Part shown: piece by piece, positions 102 to 48,816 of the stretch | How positions within the stretch are numbered: position 1 is the stretch's first letter | Layout of the letters: every line of letters starts with the position of its first letter | Origin: an uncultured Candidatus Saccharibacteria bacterium | GTDB lineage: Bacteria; Patescibacteriota; Saccharimonadia; Saccharimonadales; Saccharimonadaceae | Direction of reading: 5' to 3' | Assembly: GCA_947087275.1 (NCBI GenBank) | Contig: CAMUBZ010000005.1 | Span: forward strand, 1-60,728 | Length of the DNA: 60,728 nt | The notes under the pieces: model-generated | What the model was told of the DNA's origin: nothing | Databases searched by the model: none | The model's input: only the letters and a program-made list of their open reading frames with translations | Position numbers and translations under genes: made by a program

Positions 102-383
102 TCATAAAATGATACTAGTACAACTGGTATCATTTTTGTAATCAAGCCAAAAAAAGATCGGCACCCCCGCGGCGAAATCAAGGCAGCGGAGGGGGAAACC
201 GTTCCAACGGTTAGACGGGCCATTCGACGGGTTGACTGTCGTAGCGTTAAAGTTGAGGTTGTAAGCAGTAGCCGAAGTGCTAGAGGTATACGCGGCCGCT
301 CGCGACGACCACCAGTTGCCGTTCTGGCCAGCGTACCCTAATGTGCCTGCCGAAACGGTCAAATTGATACGCGCGCTGCGCAC
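102..383 (-). repeat. Orphan lectin-like cassette C1
   Basis: Open frame with no plausible own start: it opens at GTGCGCAGCG (383, residues VRSA) and runs through GNWWSSR and NRWNGFPLRCL. The homologous core (180-383) ends in the GC-rich block shared by all five cassettes in this window (C1 here, C2 and C3 near 16.9 kb, C4 near 31 kb, C5 near 48.5 kb). The residue pattern WWSS-x(n)-AYNLNFN-x(n)-RY/WxGFPLRCL resembles the end of C-type-lectin or Fibrobacter-major-domain surface proteins, including variable proteins of diversity-generating retroelements. The core is rich in AAC/AAT codons. Past the core lies the box AAAGATCG (153-160, plus strand), complementary to a box in the upstream leader. 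There is no SD, signal peptide or N-terminal domain, so it is a donor or template cassette or a remnant. Confidence 0.6.
106..138 (+). terminator. Terminator after tRNA-Met
   Basis: The inverted repeat ATGATAC..GTATCAT around ACTAGTACAACT is followed by TTTTT. It closes the tRNA-Met transcript before the oppositely oriented cassette. Confidence 0.6.
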
Positions 384-426
384 GAAATTATCAAACCCAA
401 CTACCTCACCATCTCACGTAAGTTTA

Positions 427-591
427 GAAGTTCAATTTTAGAGTTTTTGCATCGTAATTCAAAAACTTTGCCAACCTCATACTTCTCTTCAAAGCATTAT
501 AGGGGAACTTCACGATCTTTCAGCTGAAGACCGCAAGTGAGCGGAGGAGTGAACTCTAGCTACTTTTGGGCTCCATGGACGATGTATCCAC
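427..591 (-). ncRNA. Structured leader RNA of cassette C1
   Basis: A -10 box TATAGT (598-603, minus strand) lies 6 nt before a G that starts hairpin TGGATACATCGTCCA (576-590). Then follow GGAGCCCAAAAGTAGC, TTCACTCCTCCGC, a small hairpin (GCGG../CCGC), box AAAGATCG (513-520) and GAAGTTC, which pairs with GAACTTC about 72 nt further on. The same order occurs before cassettes C4 and C5 with compensatory changes in the first hairpin (TGGA/TCCA here, TAGA/TCTA at C4). The RNA points into cassette C1, whose start is 208 nt downstream. I do not recognise it as a known family. Confidence 0.55.
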
Positions 592-1959: not shown

Positions 1960-3324
1960 CTAGGACGCTAACTCCCTTGCTGCCATGCGCACGGCTTCGG
2001 CCCATCCCGTCGCCACATGTGGGGTGCCTGCCAATTCTTCTATCTTCAGTCCACTGCGAATTGCCAATACGATTTCCTGTATCACCAAATCCGCTTCAGG
2101 TGCGACTACGGTCGCACCAATAATTTGCATCTTAGAATTAATCAATAATTTCACAAAGCCTGCTCGAAAATCGTTCGTATTTGAAGCGCTAATCGCATCG
2201 AGCGGCACAATGGCAGACTTATATTTTTGTTTAATTTGTGCACATTCAATTTCGTTTAGCCCAACTTTTGCTACTCGCGGCAAAGTATTGGTCATGCGCA
2301 CAAAACCAGTATAATTCACTACATTACCGGCACCCTTCAGGGCATTCAAGGTCGCCAACTTACCTTCATATGTAGCCTTTTCGGTCGAACTCTCACCACC
2401 AATTACATCGCCAGCCGCCCAAATATGCCCATTTGATGTGCGCAAACTTGAGTTAACGTCCACGCCACGATAAGAGAATTTTACGCCTGCATTTTCTAGC
2501 CCAATATCCGTAGTTGGTTCAGGCGTGGTTGCTAGCACAATCGCCTGCACGCGCACTGATTTTTCTTGTCCACCTCGAATAAAGATAATTTGTTGACTAT
2601 TACTATCTTGTTGCAACGCGATCGCGCGTGAATTCAATAAGACTTTGACGCCAAAACGATCCTTCAAGTGCTTTTCAATAACCTCCCCAACTTCTGGGTC
2701 CTCACGGGGTAACAATCGTTCTTGCGCCTCCAGCAAAATCACATTCACTCCCAAAGCCGAGAAGTATTCTGCCAGCTCGCAACCAGTCGAACCACCACCA
2801 ATCACGCCAATCGCTTTGGGCAACTTAGCCATTCTCAGCGCCGTGTCCGGCGACCAGCAGTTTACAGTATCAATCCCAGAAATTCCGTTGACAGCAATAT
2901 TAGTACCCGTTGCAATCAAAAACTTTTCACTACTAATTTGTTGGTTACCTACTGCAATTTCGTGCGAACTTATAAACTGGGCAAACCCATGATAACAGTC
3001 TACCCCGGCATTTTCAAACACCTTACGATTGCCACCGCCCGCTCGACGCACCGCCGCGGCTTGCCAATTCAGCACCGTTGGATAGTTATAGCGTAAAGTT
3101 GTGCTCGACATACCAAATCGTGAACCATCCACCGCCTCGGCATAAAGCTGGCCAAAATTCAGTGCTGCACCGTAGGGAATGTCACGATAATTTAGTGTAG
3201 TACCACCCCATCTATCCGACTCAACAATCGCCGTCCGAAAACCCATACCAGCAGCCATCAAAGCCGCCGCACGCCCTGCTGCACCGCTACCTACCACTAG
3301 GTATTGATAATCGCATCTTGCCAT
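1960..3324 (-). CDS. Pyridine nucleotide-disulphide oxidoreductase-like flavoprotein lacking the redox cysteines
   Basis: 454 residues with the class I flavin reductase layout: FAD motif VVGSGAAGRAAA (residues 9-20), NAD(P) motif GVIGGGSTGCELAE (about 173-186), second FAD motif HIWAAGDVIGG (about 296-306) and a C-terminal dimerisation domain. Dihydrolipoamide dehydrogenases and mercuric reductases carry GGTCxNxGCxPSK. Here the segment reads GGTTLNYRDIPYG, so both cysteines are gone, and the usual HPT..SE end motif reads PHVATGWAE. It therefore cannot use the classic disulphide relay and may be an NAD(P)H oxidase, quinone reductase or similar. It converges with arcC 4 nt away. No clear SD; the start is by homology to the FAD motif. 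Confidence 0.8.
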   Translation of the reverse strand: MARCDYQYLVVGSGAAGRAAALMAAGMGFRTAIVESDRWGGTTLNYRDIPYGAALNFGQLYAEAVDGSRFGMSSTTLRYNYPTVLNWQAAAVRRAGGGNRKVFENAGVDCYHGFAQFISSHEIAVGNQQISSEKFLIATGTNIAVNGISGIDTVNCWSPDTALRMAKLPKAIGVIGGGSTGCELAEYFSALGVNVILLEAQERLLPREDPEVGEVIEKHLKDRFGVKVLLNSRAIALQQDSNSQQIIFIRGGQEKSVRVQAIVLATTPEPTTDIGLENAGVKFSYRGVDVNSSLRTSNGHIWAAGDVIGGESSTEKATYEGKLATLNALKGAGNVVNYTGFVRMTNTLPRVAKVGLNEIECAQIKQKYKSAIVPLDAISASNTNDFRAGFVKLLINSKMQIIGATVVAPEADLVIQEIVLAIRSGLKIEELAGTPHVATGWAEAVRMAARELAS

Positions 3325-16699: not shown

Positions 16700-16733
16700 T
16701 AATAACCCAGGGTGCACTGGCCTCTCTCATCTC

Positions 16734-16946
16734 CTACATACCTAATACAGTACTAAGGCAGCGGAGGGGGAAACCATTATAGCGTGCAGCAGAAAAAGAT
16801 GGATCAGTTATACTTAGCTGAATCCAAAGGCTATAGAAATGTGATGTTGCACTATAAGCACGCGACGAGTATATAACGCCATAGTTACCAGCATCTCTAA
16901 ATCTGCTCAGATTATTAATTGGTAATTCAATCCACCCGCTGCGCAC
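16734..16946 (-). repeat. Orphan lectin-like cassette C2
   Basis: Starts at GTGCGCAGCGGG (VRSG) and runs 70 codons to TAG: a YSSRAYSATSHFYSLW centre, then ARYNGFPLRCLSTVLGM. No SD, no promoter and no leader RNA of the C1/C4/C5 type. The codons are less AAC-rich than in C1, C4 and C5. Its last 45 bp are identical to those of C3 on the opposite strand, while the centre differs completely, so the two share ends and carry different payloads. Confidence 0.6.
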
Positions 16947-16960
16947 GAAAGTCTAAAAAT

Positions 16961-17164
16961 GTGCGCAGCGGGCACCTATACGTCGCTAATGTTCCCGGTA
17001 CGCTTAGATATACAGCTGCTGGAGGTGTTTATTGGTCTTCGCGTGGTGATGCTAATACTACTGCATATTTTCTTGCTCTCTATAGTGCACTTAATGCTTC
17101 TGATTATAATAGTCGTTACCTCGGTTTCCCCCTCCGCTGCCTTAGTACTGTATTAGGTATGTAG
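16961..17164 (+). repeat. Orphan lectin-like cassette C3
   Basis: Starts at GTGCGCAGCGGG (VRSG) 14 nt from the start of C2 on the other strand, and runs 67 codons with GVYWSSRGDANTTAYFL and SRYLGFPLRCLSTVLGM to TAG. It has no initiation signals. The 3' block and tail are identical to C2. Length and indels relative to C2 show that payloads differ by more than point changes. Confidence 0.6.
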
Positions 17165-17318
17165 GAGTGTATGGCTTATGGAAAAATATGCAAAATATCA
17201 TGCCTATGCTTGCTAAAAATTTTCGTTTTGTGCTAGTCTGGACATCAGAGCAAAAGACTCTTGTGTGAACTTTTGGTCGATAAACCAATTAGTAGTTAAT
17301 AAGCTGGAAAGGTCCGAT

Positions 17319-26574: not shown

Positions 26575-26825
26575 TTGACTTTTTTAAGCATGTGTGCTAC
26601 AATGGAATTAGTCGGTACGAACCGAACACTAGAGGTCCGTATAGATGTCCATTTACAACAATCGAATCATCTCAGATACAACATGTATCTGAGAAACAAG
26701 AAGCTAATCGCGTCTATATAGATCAGGCTTCGTGCCTACCAACCCTATGTAATTAGAATAGGAGTTGGTACCTCCTATTCTGTGTATATAAAACTAAAAA
26801 TAAACAGAATAAAGGAGGAATTATT
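26575..26825 (+). promoter_or_regulatory. Promoter and long structured leader of the 26826-29189 gene
   Basis: TTGACT, 17 nt, TGTGCTACAAT (-10 at 26598-26603). The leader of about 215 nt contains CTCAGATA-CAACATG-TATCTGAG and AGAATAGGA-GTTGGTACC-TCCTATTCT hairpins before AAAGGAGG. The preceding 26366-26574 is AT-rich and holds nothing recognisable. Confidence 0.75.
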
Positions 26826-29189
26826 ATGACACCTGCTATCATTGTTACAATTATTAGCATCATAATAGTCTTAGCATGTTTCGTGTTCATTACGGTTATC
26901 GCAAATCGTAAAGGTAACCCTAACGTGCCTAAAACAGCACAGAACAAACGTATCGAGAAGGCGGTCAAAAGGAGACAGATTACTACCCTTACGGTTGTAT
27001 TGATTTTCTTCGCAGTTATCGCAGCGTGCAAATGGTCAACAGCCAAGGAAGATTTTACCTCTTGGACCTCATCGCGAGATTCCAAGCAGGAGGCTACCGG
27101 CGCATCAGTCAGCGATAACTCCATCAACGAGAATCCCGACGGCGACAGCCCGGAGGAAGCTCAGACGCCCGCCAACGAGGCGGAGGATACCGGTGAAGAC
27201 GCCGGTGAAACCGCATCGGCGGGGAATTGGTTTACACGCTGGCTGTGGCCCGCGAAGGACGATGCAACTGAACCCGCACCCGCGGAAGGCGCAGAAGGAG
27301 AAAATCCCGAAGGCACTGACGCAGGAACGGGCGAAACGGACGGTCAGGCAGTCGAATACGCTGCTACGTCTGCAGTAACGCAGGTCGGTGCAGGTTTATC
27401 AGCAATGGCTGAAATCATCAATGCTCAGAAGTCGGCAAGTCAGGAACCCGGATCTAATCCGGAATCCGGCACACTGTCTGCGGCAGAGAACGTGCAAGAG
27501 TGGTTGACTTATTCCAGCGCAAGCTGGAGCGCGTTTAATCTGGCGCTGAAGGAAAGTGTCAAAGATACAATCGTTAAGATTGATTCTGACACGATACGGT
27601 TAATTCTCAGTTCATACTACCTTGATGTTCCTTTACATCTGGACTGGGAGGAAGCAGACTGGCTGAAGAAGCGCATTGCTGATGAAGGCAAAGGTGCTGC
27701 CTACGACCTGATGGGTTTTCCGATGTACGGTGGCATCGACAGTTGGCTCTGGTTTGACCAAGCTATTGGCTGTCGTCAAGTTACCGCAGAGGATTTAAAG
27801 GGCGTGGACCTTACGGACCATGACGCAGTCTGGGCAATTACCAAGCCCAAGCTGGAGGCATGGGAGAAAGAGTTCAATGAGCTCTCCTCTGCCGAACAGC
27901 AGAGCCGTATTGACGAGCTCGTGTTGTACGCTCTCAATAATATGTCGGGCTACGATGACATGGCGGCACAGGCCTTTAGGTCTGAGGAATGGCTGTATTG
28001 GTCAGCAAAGAGTATCTTTGATGATATTCAATACTGGTACGATACTGCCTACGATATCGCGGGTAAAGATGTCAACGACAGAAATACGGCTGTAGGTCGC
28101 GAGTGTTTCATGGAATTTCCGGATGATGTTGAATTCTTTAATCCGGATAAACATGAATACAATGCAGTCTATAAGGAAGAGTTTAGATATGATGTCATGG
28201 GGCAGCTTAGTATGATTTATATCGAGAATTTTGCTGCAAGTGACATCAAAACTTACACAACGGATATGCATTGGTGCTACCCGAATGGTGTAGAAGCGAG
28301 GTTGCGTCGCGCCACACTGGCTCCGTACACGGAAAAGGGCATTTTTATGCGCAAGACGTACTACGGTAAGCATGGTGTGAATGTACGGGATTTATTGGTA
28401 AACCTCGACGACGGGCGGTTTGGTTTTCAAACTGCCACAAAGACGACGACGCCAAAAACCAATCAACAGCCTACCAACTATGACTTGGATATTGACTATG
28501 TCTTTGAAGACGGTAGTCAGGCTAAACCGCATTACCATGCGCAGCTGAAGTTTGGTGATGCATATAGAGTAGTATCGCCGACTATCGACGGGTATACTTG
28601 TGATACGCCTGTTGTGGAAGGCGTCATGCCGGCCCGCAACATGTATTACAAAGTTATCTACAGGAAGATTCAGCAGAATAACACTGACAATAGTAGCTCT
28701 AATAATACCACCAACAACGAGAATCACGAAGACGACAAAAAGGAAGATGACGGTGGTGACGACAAGAAAGAGGAATTCTCCAAAGATGCTGGTCAGGAAG
28801 CTACTCGCGAAGAGGGCGGTGGTAACACTGGCGGTGGAGGCACTACAGGCAACGAAGACGGTGCCGATACTGCTGAACAAGCCAAGAAAGATCAGCAGGA
28901 TGATTGGGAAGCAGAACAACAGAAACGTGCTGAGGCTGAAGCAGCAGCGGCGGCTGAAGCAGCTAAGAAAGCTGAGGCAGATGCAGCAGCAAAAGCTGAA
29001 GCGGAGCGTAAGGCTGCGGAAGCCCAGAAGGCGCTGGAAGCGAGCAAGAACCTCAACAATGAGGCACAAGAAACAGAAGTTGTAGTGCAGGAAGTGAAAA
29101 AAGAGCCGAACGGAGATGTGATTATTATTGAATCAAAGGACAATCGTGCGGACAAGGTCGTTAACGGCGAGTTCCAAATTGGTGAGTAG
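26826..29189 (+). CDS. Large membrane-anchored surface protein with MucBP-like domain and Ala/Lys/Glu coiled coil
   Basis: 787 residues. Two N-terminal membrane helices (about 3-25 and 55-71), then an acidic Gly/Glu/Pro region (about 85-185) and a large globular part (about 200-545) with many Trp residues. A MucBP-like domain (about 549-613: VFEDGSQAKPHYHAQLKFG.., ending MYYKVIYRK) follows, then a Gly/Asn/Asp linker and a TolA-like helix of Ala, Glu and Lys (about 692-755). MucBP domains bind mucin or sugars in surface proteins of Gram-positive bacteria. AAAGGAGGAATTATT precedes the ATG. A candidate host-contact protein, which is inference. Confidence 0.75.
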   Translation: MTPAIIVTIISIIIVLACFVFITVIANRKGNPNVPKTAQNKRIEKAVKRRQITTLTVVLIFFAVIAACKWSTAKEDFTSWTSSRDSKQEATGASVSDNSINENPDGDSPEEAQTPANEAEDTGEDAGETASAGNWFTRWLWPAKDDATEPAPAEGAEGENPEGTDAGTGETDGQAVEYAATSAVTQVGAGLSAMAEIINAQKSASQEPGSNPESGTLSAAENVQEWLTYSSASWSAFNLALKESVKDTIVKIDSDTIRLILSSYYLDVPLHLDWEEADWLKKRIADEGKGAAYDLMGFPMYGGIDSWLWFDQAIGCRQVTAEDLKGVDLTDHDAVWAITKPKLEAWEKEFNELSSAEQQSRIDELVLYALNNMSGYDDMAAQAFRSEEWLYWSAKSIFDDIQYWYDTAYDIAGKDVNDRNTAVGRECFMEFPDDVEFFNPDKHEYNAVYKEEFRYDVMGQLSMIYIENFAASDIKTYTTDMHWCYPNGVEARLRRATLAPYTEKGIFMRKTYYGKHGVNVRDLLVNLDDGRFGFQTATKTTTPKTNQQPTNYDLDIDYVFEDGSQAKPHYHAQLKFGDAYRVVSPTIDGYTCDTPVVEGVMPARNMYYKVIYRKIQQNNTDNSSSNNTTNNENHEDDKKEDDGGDDKKEEFSKDAGQEATREEGGGNTGGGGTTGNEDGADTAEQAKKDQQDDWEAEQQKRAEAEAAAAAEAAKKAEADAAAKAEAERKAAEAQKALEASKNLNNEAQETEVVVQEVKKEPNGDVIIIESKDNRADKVVNGEFQIGE

Positions 29190-29313: not shown

Positions 29314-29461
29314 CTACCAAGATTTAGTTTGTGTTTGAGATGATTCGATTGTGGGACTGAAGAAGTTTAACAAGATGGACCAGGGAATAAAACAAAATTT
29401 ATATCAAATTTAATCAATTTTTATTAAGTAAATCATAACTAATCTATAAAAGGAGATTAAT

Positions 29462-30947: not shown

Positions 30948-31165
30948 GATAGACAAAGATCGGCACCGAACGCGGGCGCCATAAGGCAGCGGAGGGGGAA
31001 ACCGTTGTAACGATTATTGTTGTTTGACGGGCCAACTGCGCCAGCATTGAAGTTGAGGTTGTACGCGTTTGTAGCTGACGAGTATGATCGCGACGACCAA
31101 CCGTAGCCGTTCTGGCCAGCGTTCCTCGAGATACCAAGGCTAGCATTAAGATACCCGCTGCGCAC
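30926..31165 (-). repeat. Orphan lectin-like cassette C4
   Basis: Core 30983-31165 opens with GTGCGCAGCGGG and reads through YGWSSRSYSSATNAYNLNFN to NNNNRYNGFPLRCL. It is rich in AAC/AAT codons, including a run of four before RYN. The box ACAAAGATCG (30953-30962, plus strand) just past it is complementary to CGATCTTTGT in the upstream leader. A terminator hairpin ends the transcript. No start codon context or N-terminal domain. Confidence 0.65.
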
Positions 31166-31228
31166 CATTTGGTACAACTCGCATTACGGCAAAATCACCT
31201 CACGAATCCGACATCTGACGGTAGATGA

Positions 31229-31392
31229 GAAGTTCACTGCCAAAGTCAGTAATCGTAATTTCTAACTTTCTCGCCTCACAACTTACTTCCATAGTCTGAG
31301 AGGGGAACTTCACGATCTTTGTATTGAGAACCGCCGGCTGGCGGAGGAGTGAACTCAGGCCGCCCTTGGGCCCCGTAGACAAGGTATCTACC
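31229..31392 (-). ncRNA. Structured leader RNA of cassette C4
   Basis: TATAAT (31398-31403, minus) lies 5 nt before the predicted start G. First hairpin GTAGATACCTTGTCTAC (compensatory to TGGA..TCCA in C1 and C5), then GGGGCCCAAGGGCGGCC, TTCACTCCTCCGCC-AGCC-GGCGG, box ACAAAGATCG (31313-31322), and GAAGTTC paired to GAACTTC. The cassette start is 227 nt from the RNA start. Same architecture as C1 and C5. Confidence 0.6.
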
Positions 31393-31493
31393 AGTCTATT
31401 ATAACAAGTGAGACTGTCACGCTCAGTCCAAAATATATGTAAAGTTTATGCTTATTGTGAGCGTTTTGTGTTATAATCATAAGCATAAAAGTC

Positions 31494-48358: not shown

Positions 48359-48577
48359 TCAAAAGATCGGCACCCCGCCGCGGCATACAATAAGGCAGCG
48401 GAGGGGGAAACCGTTGTAACGATTATTGTTGTTTGATGGATTGACGCCAGTATTAAAGTTGAAGTTGTACGCGTTTGTATTAGTAGAGTAAGCGCGCGAC
48501 GACCACCAGACGCCTTCGTTGCCAGCGTTCCGGAGAACACCAGCGGTATTAGCTAAATTGAACCACCCGCTGCGCAC
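48359..48577 (-). repeat. Orphan lectin-like cassette C5
   Basis: Core 48392-48577 opens with GTGCGCAGCGGG and encodes VWWSSRAYSTNTNAYNFNFN and NNNNRYNGFPLRCL. Its last 43 bases of core match C4 almost exactly (AAACAACAATAATCGTTACA before the GC block), while the centre differs. The box AAAAGATCG (48361-48369, plus strand) lies past the core and is complementary to the leader. It sits between recA and murA. Confidence 0.65.
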
Positions 48578-48633
48578 GACCCGGAACAAGTTTTAAACAA
48601 CGAGATGACTATAACCGCAGGGCAGTAAATCTA

Positions 48634-48794
48634 GAAGTTCACTTCCGGCAGCCTAACCTTAATCAGACCTGCCACCAAGCCTCTTTTATCTCTTAGAATC
48701 TCAAGGGGAACTTCACGATCTTTTTTGACGAAGACCACCAGTTAGCGGAGGAGTGATCTCAGGCTACTTTTGGGCTCCATGGATTGCTATCCAC
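48634..48794 (-). ncRNA. Structured leader RNA of cassette C5
   Basis: TAAAAT (48801-48806, minus) is 6 nt before the start G. First hairpin TGGATAGCAATCCA, then GGAGCCCAAAAGTAGCC, ATCACTCCTCCGC, box AAAAGATCG (48716-48724), and GAAGTTC paired to GAACTTC. The cassette start is 217 nt from the RNA start. Same order and spacing as the leaders of C1 and C4. Confidence 0.6.
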
Positions 48795-48816
48795 AGGATT
48801 ATTTTAGCATATCACC

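Follow-up and report, generated by a model that had tools for sequence, protein, structure and literature searches.

Why should two short boxes on either side of a protein-like cassette be complementary to each other on the same strand? The question is raised by three cassettes (C1, C4 and C5) in a stretch of 60,728 nucleotides from an uncultured Candidatus Saccharibacteria bacterium (assembly GCA_947087275.1, contig CAMUBZ010000005.1, positions 1 to 60,728), hereafter the window. The contigs of the assembly are labelled separately (contig C1, contig C13 and so on), and G000 denotes the window's own genome. The original prediction paired 153-160 with 513-520, 30953-30962 with 31313-31322 and 48361-48369 with 48716-48724; these coordinates proved exact, with AAAGATCG and CGATCTTT present at all three places. 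Being homologous, the three copies do not count as separate tests against chance. Diversity-generating retroelements (DGRs) are powerful bacterial protein diversifiers in which a single reverse transcriptase (RT) normally has one template, or a few, next to it, and our analysis indicates that the boxed cassettes are very probably template repeat (TR) RNAs of a DGR, multiplied, dispersed, provided with their own promoters and acting in trans with one RT and an Avd-like protein. This reading follows from the position of the same RNA beside DGR RTs in sister species, from differences between TR and variable region (VR) that, in the genus, are almost confined to template adenines, and from the presence of an RT and an Avd-like protein in the same genome.

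The payload of the boxed cassettes is coding-like on the minus strand, where it specifies a domain of about 65 residues that lacks a start codon, is rich in asparagine (Asn) and ends in GFPLRCL. A search of G000 with this domain returned 76 copies, none of them with a stop codon; one copy, on contig C6, sits in a full-length gene and the others lie in short open frames. Boxes and a conserved flanking element are carried by 12 of the 76 copies, spread over eight contigs (C2-C7, C9 and C14), and the remainder are mostly without boxes and frequently arranged head-to-head. Every one of the 12 boxed elements has the box pair, with a stem of 7 bp in the copy at C7:12029. No stop codon occurs in the 800 codons of the boxed payloads, and Asn codons make up 15% of them, against 7% in the unboxed cassettes, with few Asn codons in the payloads at C7:11700, C7:44094 and C2:78282.

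To define the RNA, a covariance model (R1) was built from 14 leaders, 12 from G000 and one each from G013 and G014. Among 174 genomes of the same Saccharibacteria genus, 11 contained matches to it, 69 RNAs in all, with 5-22 copies per genome in the other multicopy relatives, and no Rfam family matched the boxed RNA at the gathering threshold. Aligned on the minus strand, the 12 G000 copies show a constant order. The extended -10 element is followed by two hairpins (GTGGATA, then CCGC/GCGG) and by AAAGATCG and GAAGTTC; the payload comes about 130 nt further on, and a short tail separates it from CGATCTTT. The promoter motif TGnTAnMnT lies at most 30 nt upstream in 60 of the 69 RNAs and at exactly -14 in 54, where 1.6 were expected; in the opposite orientation it was found in 4 of 63, without promoter enrichment. 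A plus-strand transcript was thus rejected, because the motif is enriched for the minus strand only. The boxed RNA is therefore predicted from its promoter to be transcribed from the minus strand, with both boxes on one transcript, which reverses the strand first assigned: the box originally placed in an upstream leader is the 3' box.

All elements of the three window copies are accordingly given on the minus strand. In cassette C1, the extended -10 (TGTTATAGT, 598-606) is at -14 relative to the structured 5' leader (497-592), whose R1 match of 104 bits (E = 5e-23) involves a model built partly from this copy; the 5' strand of the box stem, P1 (AAAGATCG, 513-520), is followed by the 5' strand of a second helix, P2 (GAAGTTC, 505-511), and, across a loop of 71 nt, by the P2 3' strand (GAACTTC, 427-433), the sense TR payload identified by the domain search (180-386, VRSAR...RWNGFPLRCL, without start codon) and the P1 3' strand (CGATCTTT, 153-160). 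Cassette C4 has the same layout, with a -10 placed by the promoter motif (TGTTATAAT, 31398-31406), a leader matching R1 with 102 bits (31297-31392), P1 strands recovered by a best-stem search (ACAAAGATCG, 31313-31322, and CGATCTTTGT, 30953-30962), P2 strands at 31305-31311 and 31229-31235 and a payload at 30983-31174. In C5, located by the same means, the -10 is at 48801-48809 (TGCTAAAAT), the leader at 48700-48795 (98 bits), P1 at 48716-48724 (AAAAGATCG) and 48361-48369 (CGATCTTTT), P2 at 48708-48714 and 48634-48640 and the payload at 48392-48586. The P2 strands of all three copies are assigned from covariation, which also backs P1.

The next question is whether the pairing of the boxes has been selected. 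A best-stem search blind to the boxes regained the pair in 64 of 68 RNAs from the 11 genomes. Within G000 the core of P1 is invariant, and it had been noted that the pairing extends differently in each copy, from which selection on pairing was argued. The differing extension is real, but position 9 pairs in 6 of the 12 own-genome copies, against 4.7 in shuffled data (p = 0.30), so the co-changes of the window do not carry that argument by themselves. Over all genomes, pairing at position 9 becomes significant (p = 0.013), and the comparison with homologues from related genomes bore out covariation: among 64 aligned copies, 94% of P1 cells are paired (38-55% with slid arms), and 47 cells are changed in both arms against 17 in shuffled data, a count reached in none of 500 shuffles, where cells are sequences and not evolutionary events. 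As the boxes were placed in the alignment by AGATCG-like and CGATCT-like patterns, which preselect positions 1-6, this test is carried by positions 7-9. Between species, AAAGATCG/CGATCTTT is replaced by GGAGATCG/CGATCTCC, GGAAGATCG/CGATCTTCC or TGAAGATTG/CAATCTTCA, and the single copy G194:C7:332 is altered in both arms (GAAGATCG/CGATCTTC). P1 clearly covaries between species, and we estimate, without a tree, at least four independent compensatory changes. GATC methylation was considered as the cause of the box core and rejected, since the arms of G195 pair without a GATC (TGAAGATTG/CAATCTTCA). Stems resembling P1 also occur in genus leaders unrelated to that of the boxed RNA, in excess over permuted pairs (1/10,000), which is only suggestive because a control placed further upstream shows some excess as well (79/5,000).

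Directly 3' of the P1 5' strand lies P2, a helix that had been overlooked. Its loop is nearly constant, with 66-79 nt in most copies, and its variation is compensated (GAAGTTC/GAACTTC, GAAGCG/CGCTTC and GAAGCCAC/GTGGCTTC); the complementarity exceeded that of all 2000 permutations, and P2 covaries more strongly than P1. These data bear on the alternative that the boxes are terminal inverted repeats of a mobile DNA cassette, whose arms resemble each other through transposase recognition and not through RNA pairing. Short inverted repeats in many dispersed copies would fit such an element, and the dispersal of the copies presumably needed some mechanism. We nevertheless give it hardly any credence, since the 5' box is found some 75 nt within a conserved promoter-led unit, both arms change together in single copies such as that of G194, and P2, which is clearly internal, covaries even more. 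The promoter-led architecture and the covariation of P1 instead sustain the proposal that the payload is the loop of one transcript closed by a selected long-range stem.

Which enzyme might use such an RNA is suggested by its neighbours in the genus. Many of these genomes contain textbook DGRs, with an RT, a target gene with a C-terminal VR and a template, and the boxed RNA adjoins a DGR RT in G013, G066, G120 and G196; the last three were outside the training set of R1, whereas G013 was part of it. The likeness to a retroelement template, first proposed from the window, is upheld by this association and by a DGR RT in G000 itself. This RT, on contig C1, has an intact frame of 404 aa, 73% identity to the DGR RT of G066 and the DGR-type motifs GIVIGNLTSQ and YGRYVDDF (YVDD), and its best PDB match is the DGR reverse transcriptase 8ub7 (E = 1e-20); retron models match it far more weakly, so it is not of the retron type. 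Searches with Pfam RVT_1 had suggested that G000 lacks an RT, a false negative disclosed when a homologous DGR RT was used as query. RVT_1 also matched RTs in G197 (contig C8) and G194 (contig C21), which are of non-DGR type, with an IPQGS motif and RYRDD or RYSDD, and are possibly defence RTs.

Beside the RT of G000 lies a gene for a protein of 331 aa (2177-3172 of the contig C1 locus), kept in all seven carrier genomes searched. Family searches gave no sequence-family match for it. Residues 183-331 are modelled as a four-helix bundle similar to Avd (4dwl and 8ub8, Z = 15.2, root-mean-square deviation 1.7-1.9), and the C-terminal 150 residues also match chains of the 8ub7 complex (Z = 15); the model is of moderate quality, with a mean predicted local distance difference test score of 65 and most of the bundle above 70, and unrelated helical bundles reach Z = 13. 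About 180 residues without fold assignment precede this domain. By its predicted fold, the protein is Avd-like.

Comparison of repeats in the genus is consistent with adenine mutagenesis. In nearly all RT-adjacent loci with both repeats, adenines account for 92-100% of TR/VR mismatches; the exceptions are loci L205 and L210 (81-82%) and L171, for which the comparison was between two template-like copies. In G013, which has the same boxed RNA, 13 of the 14 differences between the template and a VR of that contig fall on adenines. Boxed and unboxed cassettes alike close with GGTTTCCCCCTCCGCTGCC or a near match, a shared 3' end resembling an initiation of mutagenic homing sequence. As judged from its sequence, the best target candidate in G000 is a contig C13 gene (12584-14007) for a protein of 474 aa with an apparent signal peptide and a FISUMP-like region (a weak match). 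The contig stops shortly ahead of the variable domain and truncates the gene, which makes a TR-VR comparison impossible in this genome. Its G197 ortholog (contig C20, 12499-13902), 82% identical, ends at nearly the same place, as one would expect of a hypervariable or repeated domain. With regard to the C-type lectin fold of DGR targets, the weak FISUMP-family match is the only sign obtained, and AlphaFold predictions of the target have low confidence over the C-terminal variable domain.

The RNA family, its strand, the pairing of P1 and P2 and the kinship with RT-adjacent TRs are well supported by these comparisons. The transcript would run from the promoter through the 5' hairpin, the P1 5' strand, the P2 domain, a linker, the sense TR and a short tail to the P1 3' strand. 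RT and Avd might bind the 5' leader, and P1 would close the RNA and place this leader beside the TR 3' end, the required start of complementary DNA (cDNA) synthesis. The RT would then copy the TR with errors at adenines, and the mutagenised cDNA would rewrite the variable C-terminal domain of the secreted target, putatively the contig C13 product.

Several observations weigh against this scheme. The inner six pairs of P1 are nearly invariant, so its covariation comes mostly from positions 7-9 and from few independent events, and the role given to P1 is inferred. No covarying link was detected between the leader and the TR 3' end (values as high in 1474 of 2000 permutations for the leader and 1240 for the linker), so that nothing was found that would mark a priming site; complementarity between the leader and the tail linker is weak (29/2000 permutations as high). 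In addition, no TR was found within 3.7 kb around the RT of G000 and R1 has no match on contig C1, so the templates would have to act in trans. A TR inside the RT locus is usual for DGRs and not obligatory.

The templates could also be relics, the RT being inactive or used elsewhere and the RNAs persisting through recent duplication. The Asn-poor payloads listed above and the lack of a matching VR in the assembly agree with this possibility, which we consider unlikely given that stop codons are absent from the boxed payloads, the box pair is retained in every copy and the RT frame is intact.

The unboxed cassettes, about 60 in number, appear to have a different role. They lack the start codon of a full gene and have no stop in 3,429 codons, where 149 were expected in shuffled sequences; periodic expression may be what keeps them open. 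Five pairs at distant sites are 98-100% identical. The window contains a head-to-head pair of these silent, VR-like type-2 cassettes (16731-17167), recognised by domain search and sequence comparison, with perfect inverted ends of 45 bp; both have near-identical twins on another contig (195/195 and 185/186), indicating that cassettes move or convert between sites. In G024, two silent cassettes match the 3' flank of the target gene past its stop (28/28 nt). Compared with the templates, the unboxed cassettes show a moderate adenine excess; it is too small for fresh DGR products, an origin that we rejected because the differences are not adenine-restricted. They look instead like an archive of recombination donors for the target.

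One could extend this explanation to the whole family, with all 76 cassettes acting as silent donors for gene conversion, as in Neisseria pilS or Borrelia vls, and the boxed RNA being incidental. The open frames, the near-identical distant pairs and the G024 flank are what such a system would produce. For the boxed copies we regard it as quite improbable: it leaves P1 and P2 unexplained, along with the promoters, the covarying structure, the template-like Asn codons, the RNA beside sister-species RTs and the DGR RT and Avd-like protein of G000. Gene conversion probably does apply to the unboxed set, where it would form a second layer. A two-tier system, in which a dispersed library of at least a dozen stem-closed templates with their own promoters serves one RT in trans and about 60 silent, stop-free cassettes keep variants in store that are recombined into a single surface-protein gene, is a possibility that we advance tentatively, as somewhat short of probable.

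How does this arrangement compare with known systems? The inverted boxes that close a template-bearing RNA recall the a1/a2 boxes of retron msr-msd RNA, in this one respect; unlike in retrons, the RT here is DGR-like and the template encodes a protein-domain sequence. Like pilE/pilS and vlsE, the unboxed set comprises many cassettes that lack stop and start codons, and it probably has few expression sites; unlike in those systems, promoters and a structured RNA accompany the boxed copies, and the genome encodes an RT. The DGR prototype of Bordetella phage BPP-1 and the DGRs already known from Patescibacteria (clade 2 of Roux et al. 2021, PMC8144416) share with our system a DGR-type RT, an Avd-like partner, an Asn-codon-rich template, a C-terminal target domain that is apparently of the same type and, here in genus relatives, adenine-restricted TR/VR differences. 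In BPP-1 the TR lies between avd and brt, and a structured spacer 3' of it recruits RT and Avd (PMC12875486). Unlike in BPP-1, the templates described here form a dispersed multicopy RNA family with its own promoters, far from the RT, and the conserved structured RNA lies 5' of the TR and is joined to the TR 3' flank by P1, which would compensate for the different position.

Trans action is documented for a DGR of Thiohalocapsa PB-PSB1 (PMC10907252), and DGRs with several VRs and TRs are described for few systems (PMC6642488). Those systems resemble ours in that a template or RT serves distant targets, or in having more than one TR; they have two TRs, or six in an atypical case, as far as these sources go, whereas here 12 are built on a single conserved RNA architecture. 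A search of a literature library with little subscription content returned no description of at least a dozen dispersed, self-promoted, stem-closed template RNAs forming a family, so we describe the family as not found and not as certainly new. If the reading is correct, a multigene family of structurally recognisable template RNAs would offer an ultrasmall and probably host-dependent bacterium many scaffolds to choose from. The RNA signature can be searched for DGR templates far from an RT, which scans of RT neighbourhoods could miss, and with the conserved RNA lying 5' and P1 connecting it to the template's 3' side, the way in which this RNA primes cDNA synthesis becomes directly testable.

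Other features of the window were also recorded. A pilin-like gene with an N-terminal GFTVLELMVVG motif (622-1014) adjoins boxed cassette C1, and a surface protein of 450 aa with a C-terminal LPTTG-like sorting motif is encoded directly upstream of cassette C4 (29462-30814). Finally, a 33-nt inverted repeat with 82% complementarity (26658-26690 and 29320-29352) flanks a large open reading frame at 26826-29189.
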